Assembly (NCBI RefSeq): GCF_016925615.1
Contig: NZ_CP070499.1
Location: 2,728,001-2,792,000, forward strand
DNA length: 64,000 nucleotides
From: Natronosporangium hydrolyticum
GTDB lineage: Bacteria; Actinomycetota; Actinomycetes; Mycobacteriales; Micromonosporaceae
Direction of reading: 5' to 3'
The notes under the pieces were generated by a model that worked only from the letters and a program-made list of their open reading frames with translations, was not told the DNA's origin and did no database searches. Position numbers and translations under genes: made by a program. Position 1 is the stretch's first letter. Each line of letters starts with the position of its first letter. Positions 52,687 through 63,211 of the stretch are shown piece after piece.

Positions 52687-53192
52687 CCAGGCCGCGCTGC
52701 GTGCTTGTCGGGCCGCCGGGTTCGGGTAAGAGCAGCGTCGGGTTGGCGTTGGCGGAGCTGCTGCGGCTGGAGTTCCGGGACACCGACAGCGATATCGAAC
52801 AGCTCGCCGGCAAGCCGATTCCGGAGATCTTCTTCGACGACGGCGAGGAGCATTTCCGGGCGCTGGAGCGGGAGGCGGTGACCTCCGCGCTGCGCTCCTT
52901 CGACGGGGTGCTGGCGCTGGGCGGGGGCGCGGTGCTCGCGGAGTCGACCCGGGCCGCGCTCGCCGGGCACACCGTCGTCTTCTTGTCGGTGGAGTTGGCC
53001 GACGCGGTGCAGCGGGTCGGGCTGGGGCAGGGCCGTCCGCTGCTCGCGCTGAACCCGCGCGCCACCCTGCGGCACCAGCTGGACCAGCGGCGACCCCTCT
53101 ATCAGCAGGTCGCCTCGGCGACGGTGGTCACCGACGGCCGGGATGTGCCGGAGATCGCGCTGGAGATCGCGGCGATCCTACGGTCAGGCTGA
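52683..53192 (+). CDS. aroK: Shikimate kinase
   Basis: A 169-aa P-loop kinase phosphorylating shikimate. Walker A is [11 protein letters not shown], the substrate Asp lies in FRDTDSDIE, and GGGAV is the shikimate-binding loop. The lid contains GRPLL. GTG in a GTGA overlap with aroC. The stop overlaps by nine bases the end of the convergent amidohydrolase gene. Confidence 0.93.
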
Positions 53193-54488
53193 CCGGTCGA
53201 TCTCCCGACCGTTCTTCCAGACCGTGGTCAGGTCGAAAATCGCCTCGATGTCGGTGGTCGGATCCCCGGGCACCAGCACCAGGTCGGCCCGGTGGCCGGG
53301 GGCGATCCGACCCCGGTCGGACAACCCGAACACCCGGGCCGGGGTCGCGGTGGCCGCGGTCAGCGCCTCGGCCGGGGTGAGCCCGGCGGAGACCAGCAGC
53401 CGCAGCTCCCCGAGCATGCTGGCGCCGTGCGCGGTGCCTGGATTCGGCGCGTCCGTGCCGGCGAGGATGGGTACGCCGGCCCGGTGCAGGGCGCCGACGT
53501 TGTCGATGGCGGCGGCCAGCCGCTCCGGATCGCACGAGCTGAACTGGCGGGTGAGCGTGGTCAGCTGGTGGACGGTCAGCGCGGGGAGCAGCCGGGGATC
53601 GGCGTGCAGCCCGGGTGCCGGGTCGCCGCAGCTGATGCTGGCTATCACCGAGAGCGTCGGCACCACTACCGTCCCGGCCTGCTGCAACACCGCCAGCTGA
53701 CGCTCGGCGAACCGGTCGGCGTACGGCACGTGGACCAGTGCGTCGGCGGCGGCGTCTGCGGCGGTGACCGCGTCGGCGGTGGCCGAGACGTGGACCATCG
53801 CCCGGACGCCGGCCTCGTGGGCGGCGGTGATCAGCCCGTACGCCTGCTCGGGCTCGAGGGCGCGGTAGGAGGCTCCCGGCAGCGCACCACCATCCTCAAT
53901 GAACACTTTCAGATAGTCCGAGCCCTCGGCGATCCGGCGGGCGACGAACTCTGCCGGATCGGTCTGCGGACCGACGGTCGGGATGGTGCCGGTGTCTGGC
54001 CAACCACCCGGCGCGGTGGCTCCGATGCCGGCGCTCCAGACATCCGCCAGGGTGGTGGCGGCGGCGCGGCTTCGGCCCCTGGTGGCGCCGGAGAGCAGGG
54101 CGAGGTCGTGGGTGAACATGTCCAGCAGCGTGGTGACGCCGAACCGCGGGGCGTCCAGCCGCGCGGTCTGCTCAAGATGGACATGCGCGTCGATGAGTCC
54201 GGGTAGGAGGGTTCCCCCGCCGCCGTCGATCCGGGGCACCCCGGCTGGCGCGGTCACGTCGCGGTCGACAGCCGTGATCAGGCCAGCCTCGACCCGGACC
54301 GAGTACGCGTCGAGGCGGCGCTCACCGTCGAAGACGTTGACGTTGCGCAGGAGGAAGTCGGCCTCCGGTCGGCGTTGGCAGCCGACGGCGGTCGCGGTGA
54401 CCACTGCGGCGCCTGCGGCGAGCACACTGCGCCGGCGAACCGGGGCGTTCGGGTCGAAGCCGGCGTTCGGGCTGGGGACTCGGTGCAT
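53184..54488 (-). CDS. Exported amidohydrolase, probable Tat lipoprotein
   Basis: A 434-aa metal-dependent hydrolase of the imidazolonepropionase/prolidase-like amidohydrolase type. The N-terminus RRRSVLAAGAAVVTATAVGC has a twin-Arg motif and a possible lipobox Cys, so it is predicted to be folded, exported and membrane-anchored. Metal ligands are DAHVHLEQT, a Lys in LKVFIED, HVSAT, and Asp in LAGTDAPNPG. It runs against the flanking aro genes and shares the inserted block with the phn transporter. Substrate unknown. Confidence 0.85.
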   Translation of the reverse strand: MHRVPSPNAGFDPNAPVRRRSVLAAGAAVVTATAVGCQRRPEADFLLRNVNVFDGERRLDAYSVRVEAGLITAVDRDVTAPAGVPRIDGGGGTLLPGLIDAHVHLEQTARLDAPRFGVTTLLDMFTHDLALLSGATRGRSRAAATTLADVWSAGIGATAPGGWPDTGTIPTVGPQTDPAEFVARRIAEGSDYLKVFIEDGGALPGASYRALEPEQAYGLITAAHEAGVRAMVHVSATADAVTAADAAADALVHVPYADRFAERQLAVLQQAGTVVVPTLSVIASISCGDPAPGLHADPRLLPALTVHQLTTLTRQFSSCDPERLAAAIDNVGALHRAGVPILAGTDAPNPGTAHGASMLGELRLLVSAGLTPAEALTAATATPARVFGLSDRGRIAPGHRADLVLVPGDPTTDIEAIFDLTTVWKNGREIDRSA

Positions 54489-54744: not shown

Positions 54745-55746
54745 ATGAAGGTCCGCAAACTGGCCGCGCTCGGCGCGGCTACCGTACTCGCCGCGGCGAT
54801 GGCCGCCTGCGGCACCGACGATGACGCCGGCGGCAACGGCAACGGCAACGGCAACGGCGAGTGGCCGGACGAGATCGTCCTCGGGCTCGTGCCGTCGCAG
54901 GATGTCGACGAGTTGGTGGAGGACGCCGATGTGCTGGCGGACCTGATCAGCGCCGAACTCGACCACCCGGTCCGGGCGGAGATCACCCAGAACTACACCG
55001 CGCTGGTCGTGGCGATGCAGACCGGCCAGGCGCACATCGGCATGTTCGGCCCGATCGCGCTGGTGCAGGCGGCCGACCAGGCCGACGCCAATGTCGTCCT
55101 GCAGTCGATCCGCCGGGGCACCGAGAGCTACCACACCCAGTGGTTCACCAACAACCCGGAGCGGTTCTGCCAGACCGACGTTGTCGAGGCTGAGAACCCG
55201 GAGGGTAACACCGTCAGCTACTGCAACGGCACCGACGCGGCCGAGTTCGGCCCGGTTGGTGACGAGGCGCTCGCGGAGGTCGAGGCCGGCGAGACCATCA
55301 TGTTCGTGGATGAGGGCTCTGCCTCGGGCTACTACTACCCGGCGACCCAGCTGCAGGCCGCGGCCGGGCTGGACCCGTTCAACGACATCGACGCCCAGTT
55401 CGGGGGTAACCACCCGAACGCCGCGCTGGCGGTGCAGCGGGGCGACGCCGAGATCGGCGTGAGCTTCGACGATGTCCGTAACGACCTGGTCGAGGAGGAC
55501 CCGGCGATCGGTTCCGACCTGGTGGTCTTCGCCTGGTCGGACGAGATCCCGAACGATGGTGTGGCGGTCGCCGGTGACCTGCCGCAGGACCTACAGGACG
55601 CGATCACCGACGCCTTCGTCGCCGTGATCGAGACCGACGAAGGGCTGCAGGCGTTCGACGACGTCTACAGCATCGAGGGCCTGGTGCCGGCGGACCTGGA
55701 CGCGCTGGACGTGGCGCGCCAGGTGGCGGCGAACTTCGGCGACTAG
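54745..55746 (+). CDS. phnD: Phosphonate/phosphite-type ABC transporter substrate-binding lipoprotein
   Basis: A 333-aa PhnD-family binding protein: lipoprotein signal ending AAAMAACGTDDD, a linker of repeated Gly-Asn from AACGGC hexamers, then LGLVPSQDVDELVEDAD, QTGQAHIGMFGPIALVQA, FVDEGSASGYYYPATQL and HPNAALAVQRGDAEIGV, all PhnD-like. The mature chain has no Lys that I can find and is extremely rich in Asp/Glu. No phosphonate-degradation genes are nearby, so the ligand could be phosphonate, phosphite or phosphate. A strong hairpin follows before phnC. Confidence 0.9.
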   Translation: MKVRKLAALGAATVLAAAMAACGTDDDAGGNGNGNGNGEWPDEIVLGLVPSQDVDELVEDADVLADLISAELDHPVRAEITQNYTALVVAMQTGQAHIGMFGPIALVQAADQADANVVLQSIRRGTESYHTQWFTNNPERFCQTDVVEAENPEGNTVSYCNGTDAAEFGPVGDEALAEVEAGETIMFVDEGSASGYYYPATQLQAAAGLDPFNDIDAQFGGNHPNAALAVQRGDAEIGVSFDDVRNDLVEEDPAIGSDLVVFAWSDEIPNDGVAVAGDLPQDLQDAITDAFVAVIETDEGLQAFDDVYSIEGLVPADLDALDVARQVAANFGD

Positions 55747-55753
55747 CACGACA

Positions 55754-55795
55754 CGTTCGGGCGGGGCGGCGTCACGGCGCTGCCCCGCCCGAACG
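55754..55795 (+). terminator. Intercistronic hairpin between phnD and phnC
   Basis: A perfect 14-bp stem CGTTCGGGCGGGGC (55754-55767) with GCCCCGCCCGAACG (55782-55795), extendable by inner GGCG/CGCT pairs. Such hairpins behind binding-protein genes usually protect the upstream message and reduce expression of the ATPase and permeases. Confidence 0.8.
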
Positions 55796-55826
55796 GTGTT
55801 CCGTACCAAGTGGAGGGAAGCGGTCT

Positions 55827-56636
55827 GTGATCCAGTTCTCTGGTGTCTCTGTGGTCTACCCCGGAGGGACCCACGCGTTGAGCGATATCGACCTGGAGAT
55901 CGCTGACGGTCAGTTCGTCGTGGTGGTGGGGCTCTCCGGTGCCGGCAAGTCCACTCTGGTGCGGACGATCAACGGTCTGGTGCCGCTCACCAGCGGCAGC
56001 CTTGAGGTGGGCGGGCGGCGCGTGGACGGCGCAAGCCGGCGCCAGCTGCGGGCGTTGCGCGCCGACATCGGCATGATCTTCCAGTCGTTCAACCTGGTCA
56101 AGCGCACCAGCGTGCTGAACAACGTACTCATGGGCCGGCTGCACTCGACCCCGACCTGGCGTTCGCTGCTCGGGCTGTATAAGCGGTCTGACAAAGAGTT
56201 GGCCTTCCAAGCGCTGGAACGGGTCGAGGTGGTGGAGAAGGCGTACGTGCGGGCGAGCAACCTCTCCGGCGGCCAGCAGCAGCGGGTCTCGATCGCCCGA
56301 GCCCTGGCGCAGGAGCCGCAGGTGATGCTCGCCGATGAGCCGGTCGCCTCGCTCGACCCGCCGACCGCCAACGTGGTCATGCGCGACCTGCAGCGGATCA
56401 ACCGCGAACTCGGCATCACCACCATCGTCAACCTGCACTTCCTGGACCTCGCCAAGCGGTACGGCGACCGGATCATCGGAATGCGGGAGGGCCGGGTGGT
56501 CTTCGACGGCACCGGGGAAGAAGCCGACGAGAAGGTCTTCGAGGATATCTACGGCCGGTCGTTGACCGCCGACGACGTGATCGGCGAGGAGCCGGTCGAA
56601 GTGGACCTCGACAAGGTGCTGGACGCCGAGTCGTGA
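55827..56636 (+). CDS. phnC: Phosphonate ABC transporter ATP-binding protein
   Basis: A 269-aa ABC ATPase: Walker A GLSGAGKSTLVRTING, Q-loop MIFQSFNLVKR, signature LSGGQQQRVSIARAL, Walker B VMLADEPVASLDP, H-loop NLHFLDLA. The PhnC family pattern around SFNLVKRTSVLNNVLMGRL is clear. GTG start; GTGA overlap with the first permease gene. Confidence 0.93.
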   Translation: MIQFSGVSVVYPGGTHALSDIDLEIADGQFVVVVGLSGAGKSTLVRTINGLVPLTSGSLEVGGRRVDGASRRQLRALRADIGMIFQSFNLVKRTSVLNNVLMGRLHSTPTWRSLLGLYKRSDKELAFQALERVEVVEKAYVRASNLSGGQQQRVSIARALAQEPQVMLADEPVASLDPPTANVVMRDLQRINRELGITTIVNLHFLDLAKRYGDRIIGMREGRVVFDGTGEEADEKVFEDIYGRSLTADDVIGEEPVEVDLDKVLDAES

Positions 56637-57451
56637 GCACCGACCTGACCATGCCGGTGGCGGGCCCGGTCGGCGCGGGGCGGCCGCCCCGGCCCCGACC
56701 CCGGTGGTCGTTGTGGATCGGTCTCGGGATCGTCGCGCTCATCACCTGGTGGGCCGGCCGTCAGATCGACTTCACGCTCACCCCGCTCTTTACCGACTTC
56801 GACCGCGGCAGCGCGATCGTCTCCCGGTTCTTCGACCCCAACTGGGGGTTCATCTTCCAGGTGTGGCCCCGCTGGCTGGAGACCCTCTACATCGCGGTGA
56901 TCGCCGCGTTGGTCGGCAACGGCCTGGCGCTGTTCATCTCGCTGCTGGCTAGTCCGGTCACCAGCCCCAACCGGTTCACCTACCAGGCCGCCAAAACTGT
57001 GCTCAGCGTGGTCCGTTCGTTGCCGGACGTCGCGTACGCGTTGTTGTTCGTGGCTGCGGTGAGCACCGGCGCGCTCGCGGGCATCCTGGCGTTGATCATG
57101 TTTAACATCGGGATCAACGCCAAGCTCACCTCGGAGACGATCGACGCGGTCGACACCGGCCCGGTGGAGGCGGCCGACGCCGCCGGCGCGAACCGGCTGC
57201 AGCGGGCGTGGGGCGCGGTGGTGCCGCAGATCCTGCCGAGCTACCTCTCCTACAGCTTGTACGTCTTCGAGCTCAACATCCGGGCCTCGGTGGTGATCGG
57301 CATCGTCGGCGGCGGCGGCATCGGCGCGGTGATCATGGTGCAGCTGAGCCGTTTCAACTACGAGAACCTGGGCGCGATCATCGTGGCGCTCTTCGCCGTG
57401 GTGTTCCTGCTCGACCGAGTCTCGATCTGGTTCCGTCGGAGGTTGGTGTGA
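56633..57451 (+). CDS. phnE: Phosphonate ABC transporter permease (first copy)
   Basis: A 272-aa permease with about six helices. The EAA loop that contacts the ATPase reads EAADAAGANRLQRAWGAVVP, and ELNIRASVVIGIVGGGGIG is the typical PhnE segment. GTG start; overlaps phnC and the second permease by GTGA on both sides. Likely pairs with the second permease as a heterodimer. Confidence 0.92.
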   Translation: MSTDLTMPVAGPVGAGRPPRPRPRWSLWIGLGIVALITWWAGRQIDFTLTPLFTDFDRGSAIVSRFFDPNWGFIFQVWPRWLETLYIAVIAALVGNGLALFISLLASPVTSPNRFTYQAAKTVLSVVRSLPDVAYALLFVAAVSTGALAGILALIMFNIGINAKLTSETIDAVDTGPVEAADAAGANRLQRAWGAVVPQILPSYLSYSLYVFELNIRASVVIGIVGGGGIGAVIMVQLSRFNYENLGAIIVALFAVVFLLDRVSIWFRRRLV

Positions 57452-58374
57452 CCGGAATGCTGCGATCCGATCGTGACCCGCACGCCGCGGGTCGGCTCCC
57501 GTTGCACCGGGGTGACCGGCCGCAGCCGCCGGGCAAGACTCGGCAGACCATCGGCCTGCTGCTGGTCCTGGGCGTGGTGCTGGTCTGTTTCTGGTTGGTC
57601 GACGCCCGCTGGGGCCGGCTGATCGAGGCGCCGCCGATCCTGGCCGACTACTTCGAGCTGATGGCCCAGGGGGTGTTCCAGAACCCGGTCGAGGACCCGA
57701 CCGTGGGCTACTGGCAGCGCGCCTTCGACCTGATGCTCGAGTCGCTCTACATGGCGTGGATCGGCACCATGATCGGGGCGCTGCTGTCGTTCCCGCTGGC
57801 CTTCCTGGCGGCCGAGAACGTCGCCCCGAAGCCGGTGGTCTTCGTCACTCGGCAGTTCCTGAACGCGATCCGGGCGATCCCGGAGCTGATCTTCGCGATC
57901 GCGATCATGCTGCCGATCTTCGGGCTCGGCCCGCTGGCCGGGGCGCTCGCCCTCGGCGTCGGGTCGGTCGGCACCCTCGGCAAGCTCACCAGCGAGGTGA
58001 TCGAAGGGACCGACCGCGGCCCGGTGGAGGCGGCCCGGGCCTCCGGCGCCGGGTTCCTGGCCACGCTGCGGTGGAGCATCGTGCCGCAGGCGCTGCCCGA
58101 GACGATCGCCTTCTGGCTCTACCGGTTCGAGATCAACATCCGGGCCGGGGCGGTGCTCGGCGTCCTCGGCGCCGGTGGCATCGGCTCGATCCTCTCCGAC
58201 CTGTTCCGGGTCCGGGCCTGGGACCGGATCGGGATCACCCTGCTAGTGATCATCGTGGTGACGGTGATTATCGACCAGATCTCAGCGCGGGTCCGTAATA
58301 GAATCATCCAGGGCCCGGGCGTCTCCGCCCGGTCTACCCAGCTCCAGCCGGTGACCGGTCCGGCCGCGGCCTGA
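57448..58374 (+). CDS. phnE: Phosphonate ABC transporter permease (second copy)
   Basis: A 308-aa paralogue of the first permease with a longer polar N-terminus, the EAA loop EAARASGAGFLATLRWSIVP, and FEINIRAGAVLGVLGAGGIG. GTG 57448 overlaps the preceding TGA; a longer open frame reading upstream only covers the first permease in another phase. The aroB frame opens 63 bp downstream, so it probably depends on this transcript. Confidence 0.92.
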   Translation: MTGMLRSDRDPHAAGRLPLHRGDRPQPPGKTRQTIGLLLVLGVVLVCFWLVDARWGRLIEAPPILADYFELMAQGVFQNPVEDPTVGYWQRAFDLMLESLYMAWIGTMIGALLSFPLAFLAAENVAPKPVVFVTRQFLNAIRAIPELIFAIAIMLPIFGLGPLAGALALGVGSVGTLGKLTSEVIEGTDRGPVEAARASGAGFLATLRWSIVPQALPETIAFWLYRFEINIRAGAVLGVLGAGGIGSILSDLFRVRAWDRIGITLLVIIVVTVIIDQISARVRNRIIQGPGVSARSTQLQPVTGPAAA

Positions 58375-58437
58375 TCGGCTCCACCGTCTGACCGTTCCAC
58401 CGGCTGACCGTGTCCCGCCTGAGCCCAGGAGCGCCCG

Positions 58438-59508
58438 CTGAGCACCACCATCCCGGTCACCGGGCCACCCCCGTACGACGTAGTGGTCGGCCACGACGTG
58501 TTGGCGTCCGTGCCGGCGGCGCTGGCCGGCACGCAGCGGGTGGCGGTGATCTTCGCCCCGCCGCTGGCGGCGCTCGCCGAGCGCGTCGCCGCCCTGCTCA
58601 CGGCGGCGGGCAGCGAACCGACGCCGGTGCCGGTGCCGGATGCGGAGTCGGGCAAGAACGCAGAAGTTCTCGCGAGGTGCTGGGATGCGCTCGGCGCGGC
58701 CGGGTTCACCCGCAGTGACGCAGTCGTCGGTGTCGGCGGCGGGGCCGTCACCGACCTCGCCGGCTTCGTCGCCGCCACCTGGCTGCGTGGGGTGCGCTGG
58801 GCGGCGGTCCCGACCAGTCTGCTGGGGATGGTCGACGCCGCGGTCGGCGGCAAGACCGGGATCAACACCGCCGCCGGCAAGAACCTGGTCGGCGCCTTCC
58901 ACCCGCCGGCGGTGGTCGCCGCCGACCTCGACGTTCTGCGTACGCTGCCGCCCGCCGACCTGGCCGCCGGGCTGGCCGAGGTGGTCAAGTGCGGGTTCAT
59001 CGCGGACCCGACGATTTTGAAGCTGATCGAGGCCGACCCGGCCGCGGCGCAGCAGCTCGACGGCGAGATCCTGCCGGAGCTGGTGGAGCGGGCGATCCGG
59101 GTCAAGGCCAAGGTGGTCTCGACCGACCTGCACGAGGCCGGCCTACGCGAGGTGCTCAACTACGGGCATACCCTCGGGCATGCGGTCGAGCAGATCGAGG
59201 GCTACCAGCGGCGTCACGGCGAGGCGGTGGCGATCGGGCTGGTCTACGCGGCGGCGTTGGCTCGCCACGCCGGGCGGCTGGACGACGCGACCGTGGAGCG
59301 GCACCGGACGGTGCTGCAACAGCTGCGGCTGCCCACCACCTACCGGGCCGACGCCTGGCCGCAGCTGCGGGCGGCGATGAACATCGACAAGAAGACCCGG
59401 GGGGCGACCCTGCGGTTCGTGATCCTCGACGGGCTGGCCCGGCCCGCCACCCTGGAAGGGCCCTCCGAGGAGCTGTTGGCGCAGGCGTACTCCGAGGTGG
59501 CGGTGTGA
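58438..59508 (+). CDS. aroB: 3-Dehydroquinate synthase, apparent CTG start
   Basis: NAD-dependent enzyme of about 356 aa: [48 protein letters not shown] and [12 protein letters not shown]. The first beta strand ([15 protein letters not shown]) is essential but lies before the first ATG/GTG in frame (GTG 58483, which would cut through it). An in-frame TGA at 58420-58422 rules out a longer start, and between them the only usable codon is CTG 58438, with AGGAG at 58427-58431, six bases upstream. I therefore call a CTG start. GTG-linked to aroQ. Confidence 0.9.
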
Positions 59509-59954
59509 TCGCGACCTATGTGCTCAACGGTCCCAACCTCGGCCGGCTCGGCACCCGGCAGCCCGACGTCTACGGGGTGACCTCGTACGCCGACCTGGTG
59601 GACCTGTGCGAGCAGACTGGTGAGCAGCTCGGGCTGGCGGTGACGGTCCGGCAGACCGATGCCGAGCACGAGCTGTTGGGCTGGCTGCACCAGGCTGCGG
59701 ACGAGGCCGCCCCGGTGGTGTTGAACCCGGCCGCCTGGTCGCACTACTCGTACGCGGTGCGGGACGCTTGCGCCATGCTGCGGGCGCCGCTGCTCGAGGT
59801 GCACATTTCGAACATCCACGCCCGGGAGTCGTTCCGGCACCACTCGGTGGTCTCGGCGGTCGCCACCGGGGTGATCTGTGGGCTTGGGGTGGACGGCTAC
59901 CGGCTAGCGCTGCGCTACGTCGCCGACCGGCTCGCGGTCGGCGACGACGGTTAG
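59505..59954 (+). CDS. aroQ: 3-Dehydroquinate dehydratase, type II
   Basis: A 149-aa dodecameric-type dehydroquinase. [17 protein letters not shown] contains the catalytic Arg and Tyr loop, [18 protein letters not shown] the substrate Asn, and [17 protein letters not shown] the His/Arg part. GTG start overlapping the aroB stop. The last 51 bases overlap the convergent nucleotidase gene. Confidence 0.95.
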
Positions 59955-62550: not shown

Positions 62551-63039
62551 TCAGGACTCGAAGAGTGCCCGCGGGTCGGAGACCAGCATGTCGTTGTCGG
62601 CGAGCCGGTCGATCAGGTCGGCCGGGGCCTCGTCGTAGACGATCGCCAGCGCCTGGAGGTCCGAGGCCCGAATCGACAGGACCCGGCCGTTGTAGTCGCC
62701 GCGCTGGTGCTGGATCGCCCGGGCATAGTTCGCCACGTGGGTGAGGTCGTCCTCTTTCCGGTCGTAGAGCTTCTCCAGGTCGAGCACCACCTTGCCGGCG
62801 AAGTCGAACTGGATCGGCGTGCCTTCGGGCAGTAGCTCCGAGACCGGCACCCGGTAGAACTCCGCGATCTCCGCCAGTCGGTTGACGGTCACCGCGCGGT
62901 CTCCCCGCTCGTACGATCCGACGACCACCGCCTTCCAGCGGCCGCCCGACTTCTCCTCCACCCCCTGCAGGGAGAGGCCCTGCTGCTGGCGGATGGCCCG
63001 CAGGCGAGCGCCTAGTTGCTTGGCGAACTCAGAAGGCAT
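62551..63039 (-). CDS. bldD: Developmental master repressor BldD
   Basis: A 162-aa regulator that, as a c-di-GMP-bound dimer, represses sporulation genes in streptomycetes and relatives. The N-terminal HTH domain includes LGARLRAIRQQQGLSLQGVE and VVVGSYERGDRAVTVNRL; the C-terminal domain has the full c-di-GMP signature RGD-X8-RXXD (RGDYNGRVLSIRASD), so ligand binding is predicted. ATG 63039 has AGGAG eight bases upstream; a GTG three codons earlier is less likely. It is divergent from pyrR and has a BldD box in its own promoter region. Confidence 0.95.
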   Translation of the reverse strand: MPSEFAKQLGARLRAIRQQQGLSLQGVEEKSGGRWKAVVVGSYERGDRAVTVNRLAEIAEFYRVPVSELLPEGTPIQFDFAGKVVLDLEKLYDRKEDDLTHVANYARAIQHQRGDYNGRVLSIRASDLQALAIVYDEAPADLIDRLADNDMLVSDPRALFES

Positions 63040-63086
63040 GATCGACACTCCTAGTGACTGACCGAGGGGATTTACCCGAGTTTTCG

Positions 63087-63099
63087 CTACGCAGAGTGA
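63087..63099. promoter_or_regulatory. BldD-binding box, probable autoregulation
   Basis: CTACGCAGAGTGA matches the published BldD consensus TNACNC(A/T)GNGTNA at eight of nine fixed positions (the first T is C). It lies 48 bp upstream of the bldD ATG in the bldD-pyrR divergent region, where autoregulation is known in Streptomyces. Confidence 0.75.
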
Positions 63100-63211
63100 C
63101 GGTACGCGGGAGCAGTCCGCTTGGTCAAGTGCTACCCGTCACCTGATCTACCCAGCGGGCGGCGGTGTCCGGGCTGCTACGCTCGTACCGCCAACCCGAC
63201 GTCCTTTAAAG

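Follow-up and report, generated by a model that had tools for sequence, protein, structure and literature searches.

The window analysed here is a 64,000-nucleotide stretch of the Natronosporangium hydrolyticum genome, and the subject is the start of aroB, the gene for 3-dehydroquinate synthase. In the window, aroB stands in the order aroK, an amidohydrolase gene (minus strand), phnD, phnC, phnE1, phnE2, aroB and aroQ. Its reading frame is unbroken over 356 codons counted from a CTG at 58438, and this CTG is probably where translation begins. The start region has the following components:

58420–58422, plus strand: in-frame TGA bounding the aroB frame on its upstream side (sequence).
58427–58431, plus strand: AGGAG, resembling a Shine-Dalgarno (SD) sequence, six bases from the CTG (sequence).
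58438–58440, plus strand: CTG, proposed start codon of aroB (no ATG, GTG or TTG between the TGA and the conserved strand; relatives have ATG or GTG in this alignment column).
58438–59508, plus strand: aroB, 3-dehydroquinate synthase, 356 amino acids from the CTG (TIGR01357; alignment to 3qbd).
58483–58485, plus strand: GTG, codon 16 and the earliest in-frame ATG, GTG or TTG, which would delete residues 1–15 and lies within a predicted strand (residues 13–18).

The identity of the gene is well established. The protein scores 346.7 bits against the NCBIfam model TIGR01357 (cut-off 305), and 3qbd, a solved 3-dehydroquinate synthase that we take to be the Mycobacterium tuberculosis enzyme, aligns to residues 3–354 with an E-value of 2e-119. 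It is also the only convincing aroB in the source genome (one contig of 5.70 Mb, completeness rating 99.49%). The single other match is only 31% identical (E-value 8.3e-5), and a second aroB as a backup copy was therefore rejected.

Several lines of evidence place the N-terminus ahead of GTG 58483. In the codons that precede it, identity to homologous DNA is 0.73, 0.74 and 0.51 at the first, second and third positions (129 aligned codons, 10 of 10 hits), a coding periodicity implying that the protein must begin further upstream. The conserved PPPYDVVVG of AroB begins at codon 10 counted from the CTG, and an alignment of 25 AroB proteins, the window protein among them, shows no variation at Tyr13 or Val15. 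The AlphaFold model has a mean predicted local distance difference test score (pLDDT) of 90.3, with block values of 87 and 91 over residues 1–20, and predicts strands at residues 2–7 and 13–18. A start at GTG 58483 would lose both invariant residues and the first predicted strand, so the protein must begin earlier. The sequence-only reading had held that no ordinary start precedes the conserved AroB strand and that CTG 58438 serves instead. The first part is exact, as are the coordinates of the TGA, AGGAG, spacer and CTG, while the second is backed by predicted structure and by comparison with relatives. The AGGAG supports the CTG start only moderately: of the 2560 CTG triplets that the window holds on its two strands, 138 (5.4%) have a five-base SD match 4–10 bases upstream.

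Relatives were drawn from two sets. The first comprised 61 genomes including the source, with an aroB match in 60 and loci given for 29 of the 59 matched relatives. The second was a scan of species genomes, from which the best 80 of 553 loci were taken. Together these make 109 loci, some from the same genome, with 102 distinct start regions. Every one of the 102 has an ATG, GTG or TTG 8–24 codons ahead of the conserved Tyr, and the window has none. This criterion is permissive, as it records that a canonical codon is present and does not imply its use. ATG occurs in 77 regions, GTG without ATG in 23 and TTG alone in two. Aligning the N-termini of relatives, the check that had been proposed for the CTG, placed an ATG (L009 and L025) or a GTG (L024 and L028) in the very column it occupies. 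Among the loci examined, the aroB CTG was seen in the source genome only, and this singularity suggests that the absence of a canonical start is probably derived.

Three observations weigh against initiation at the CTG. The codon is not conserved in the closest relatives: both same-genus genomes carry ATG (MNPTHQPTAIPVAGPAPY in G001 and MNEITTIQVRGTPPY in G002), which points to either a derived change or an error, although such conservation is a supporting and not a defining feature of a CTG start. The predicted RNA fold of the start region is unremarkable (z 0.33) and leaves part of it paired, and a special RNA structure at the start was rejected. Lastly, in a study of M. smegmatis, CTG was not enriched in the leadered position, which counts against its efficient use (PMC4633059).

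The DNA immediately upstream of the CTG bears on how the message might be made:

58375–58437, plus strand: gap of 63 bases between phnE2 and aroB, without a TA dinucleotide (sequence).
58299–58304, plus strand: TAGAAT inside phnE2, the sole TANNNT from 58200 to the CTG and a possible internal −10 element (motif only).

In leaderless mRNAs a −10 element closely precedes the ATG or GTG start, and the gap, holding no TA, has no such arrangement. A scan of the gap region for promoter and terminator patterns found none, although shuffled sequences likewise gave none and the scan is therefore little informative. Because a gap without TA is also without TANNNT, aroB is likely to be carried on a message from upstream, shared with the phn genes or arising from the TAGAAT at 58299. 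By eye, the gap also holds an imperfect direct repeat, CCACCG(T/G)CTGACCGT, at 58380–58412.

The relatives are often organised differently. A TANNNT ends 4–10 bases before the ATG in 52 of the 76 distinct relatives with an ATG start, compared with none or one of 76 at each of eight shifted positions, and only 5 of the 76 have a five-base SD. Judged by motif and position, this is the arrangement of leaderless genes. The aroB of these relatives encodes the same protein with the same N-terminal region, and differs in pairing TANNNT with ATG where the window has an SD sequence, CTG and no TANNNT. The same-genus G001 and G002 have ATG but neither TANNNT nor a five-base SD. They argue against a simple switch in which loss of the promoter-proximal pattern led to the CTG, and suggest that the loss may predate it. 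In the M. smegmatis study, CTG did not work effectively as a start in the leaderless position (PMC4633059), which fits the presence of an SD sequence before the aroB CTG.

The explanation that best accommodates these observations, and one we consider quite probable from the sequence comparisons and the structural model together, is that aroB initiates at CTG 58438. Translation would take place on a leadered message, supplied from the upstream phn genes or a promoter within phnE2, with the AGGAG guiding the ribosome and compensating for the near-cognate codon. AroB would then begin (f)Met-Ser-Thr-Thr-Ile-Pro-Val, with methionine presumed at the CTG. An ancestral ATG or GTG would have been replaced by CTG, perhaps after a rearrangement that placed phnE2 63 bases upstream.

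An assembly error is the main rival: either one base is wrong and the codon at 58438 is really ATG, GTG or TTG, or a small indel masks the start. The canonical codons of all 102 distinct regions, the ATG of the same-genus genomes and the fact that the CTG is known from one assembly of the species would all fit an error, but the genome is assembled in one contig and the frame is intact over its 356 codons. As for an indel, translation from the closest out-of-frame start, GTG 58410, which has no SD before it evident by eye, would produce an N-terminus that differs from those of 29 relatives, and this start was rejected for that reason. An error is rather unlikely. We think it less probable still that ribosomes reach the CTG by termination and reinitiation, from phnE2 or from the frame ending at TGA 58439 (a CTGA overlap), and not by SD-guided entry. 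A trmH-like gene of the source genome does overlap rplT as CTGA, but the phnE2 stop lies 63 bases upstream of the aroB CTG, and the frame ending at 58439 has had no ATG, GTG or TTG since its previous stop at 58352. This account shares the CTG with SD-guided initiation, and the probabilities attached to the explanations therefore do not sum to one.

A start at GTG 58483, giving a protein without residues 1–15, is highly improbable. As the earliest canonical in-frame start it may be what annotation programs pick, but it strips the first predicted strand, half of the second and the invariant Tyr13 and Val15, and leaves the coding periodicity of the preceding codons unexplained; it was rejected for the loss of the invariant residues and strand 1. 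Least probable of all is another near-cognate codon, ATC 58450, which has possible precedents in infC and perhaps a PspC-domain kinase (both below) but was rejected because it lies 18 bases from the SD sequence, and which would trim four residues, three of them within a predicted strand.

The phenomenon is known, but initiation at the aroB CTG would be an unusual case of it. In a ribosome-profiling study of Salmonella, 4 of 26 novel proteoforms are reported to be CUG-initiated (PMC11005335); as at aroB, CUG there acts as an in-frame initiation codon, and the alternative starts have SD contexts stronger than the annotated ones, which we count as a further likeness. The Salmonella cases differ in being alternative proteoforms beside an annotated start, whereas the aroB CTG would be the sole start of a conserved enzyme. 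A literature search covering the titles and abstract openings of open-licence papers found no CTG-started aroB. If the CTG start is real, a conserved biosynthetic enzyme hangs on a start codon that a mycobacterial reporter selection did not favour, and the locus would be a natural example of SD-guided CTG initiation taking over from a canonical start. How often actinobacteria use near-cognate starts may then be underestimated, and annotation programs would shorten such proteins.

The genes around aroB offer a possible setting for such a change:

53184–54488, minus strand: amidohydrolase-family gene between aroK and phnD (PF01979, 98.8 bits).
54745–57451, plus strand: phnD-, phnC- and phnE-type genes, co-directional with aroB (profile matches).
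57442–58374, plus strand: second phnE-type permease gene, phnE2, start tentative, stop TGA at 58372 (TIGR01097, 253.6 bits).
59505–59954, plus strand: aroQ-like gene overlapping the end of aroB (it follows aroB in most loci compared).

The phnD protein scores above the TIGR01098 cut-off and below that of the PhnD equivalog. The sequence-only reading had suggested that the CTG arose when the phn block broke an original aroK-aroB junction. It is correct that phn genes separate aroK and aroB, but the origin proposed for the CTG is weak as stated. The aroK-aroB interval of G002 likewise contains phn genes, but there they run the other way, phnD adjoins aroB and the ATG is kept. More generally, aroK and aroB are more than 300 bases apart, and up to 5.3 kb, in 44 of the 87 loci with aroK in view. 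All 44 have canonical starts, so an interrupted junction alone does not yield CTG.

A rearrangement may nevertheless have placed phnE2 63 bases ahead of aroB. The opposite orientations of the phn genes in the window and in G002 could reflect an inversion or two insertions; identity between the two is 72% for phnC, 43% for phnD and 47–49% for phnE. A blastn comparison of G002 with the window found no similarity from 58188, inside phnE2, to 58671, at about aroB codon 78, and located no breakpoint. Close phn matches were found at no other of the 109 loci, although 28 of the 29 first-set loci, that of G002 aside, span only about 1.5 kb upstream. In G001, the aroK-aroB interval is filled by other genes. 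Directly upstream of aroB in that genome is a longer homologue of an alpha/beta hydrolase-like gene that is present in the source genome (G000) as a broken fragment at G000:C1:2606046-2606621, with its upstream part in another frame.

Other genes of the source genome may also start at near-cognate codons. After rplT comes the trmH-like (SpoU) methyltransferase gene, whose apparent start, CTG 2827645 (G000:C1), overlaps the rplT stop as CTGA. No in-frame ATG, GTG or TTG of this gene precedes residue 71, which falls within the Pfam substrate-binding domain (31–117). Six of 29 relatives (L206, L207, L208, L209, L211 and L213) have no canonical start within 30 codons of the conserved TPR-type motif, L209 having a GTG at 32. 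The CTGA overlap recurs in L207, L208 and L213, and the same-genus genomes have GTG and TTG.

For a PspC-domain histidine kinase, the start may be ATC 957889 (G000:C1), which is preceded by AGGGAG. Of 28 matched relatives, three partial ones were left out; among the remaining 25, six (L253, L255, L257, L258, L260 and L274) have ATC with an SD-like sequence and no nearby canonical start, as judged over the displayed stretch or back to a stop. Two more (L261 and L262) have GTG directly before the ATC, and the other 17 differ.

In infC, which lies upstream of rplT, ATC stands at the expected start behind GAGGAGG, reading GAGGAGGCCTC before the ATC, and an in-frame TTG occurs ten codons ahead. Like aroB, infC thus has a near-cognate codon behind a strong SD sequence, but its ATC recurs in all five relatives compared, whereas the aroB CTG was seen in this genome only. 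The infC gene is autoregulated by its product, initiation factor 3. Conceivably, the CTG of aroB and of the rplT-linked trmH-like gene and the ATC of the PspC-domain kinase and of infC form a small set of near-cognate starts used by the lineage and co-tuned by initiation factor 3, so that flux through the shikimate pathway and methylation of rRNA would track the state of translation initiation. This idea is speculative, and we give it little chance of being right.

A survey for further cases flagged no larger a share of reading frames in this genome than in control genomes. Its first version, over 464 kb of the source genome, flagged 30 of 188 conserved open reading frames as lacking a canonical start. 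The second version required that at least 60% of hits cover the stretch, with at least 8 aligned codons per hit, 50% identity and a third-position identity 0.1 lower. It flagged 5 of 174 frames in block 1 and 3 of 102 in block 2 of the source genome, compared with 5 of 169 and 2 of 128 in G003 and 5 of 194 and 4 of 114 in G022, the controls. The flags were judged by eye and not blind. In the source genome, aroB, the trmH-like gene and the kinase seemed to be without a canonical start, and the remaining flags looked like overhanging alignments, conserved DNA ahead of the gene, a different reading frame or a broken gene. None of the control flags was judged start-less by eye, with codons inspected only for the source-genome candidates and their matches. 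Since the flag rate was no higher than in the controls and the choice was made by eye, no enrichment is shown for the source genome. The survey is also blind to genes with an in-frame ATG, GTG or TTG farther upstream, infC included, and it missed a real parallel, as the G003 kinase has the same ATC inside a surveyed block and was not flagged.

Elsewhere in the window, at 62551–63140, the DNA immediately upstream of a minus-strand regulator gene, presumably BldD-like, is conserved among relatives almost in the manner of coding sequence. An ATG at 63048 or slightly downstream fits the protein, and the stretch is perhaps conserved regulatory DNA.
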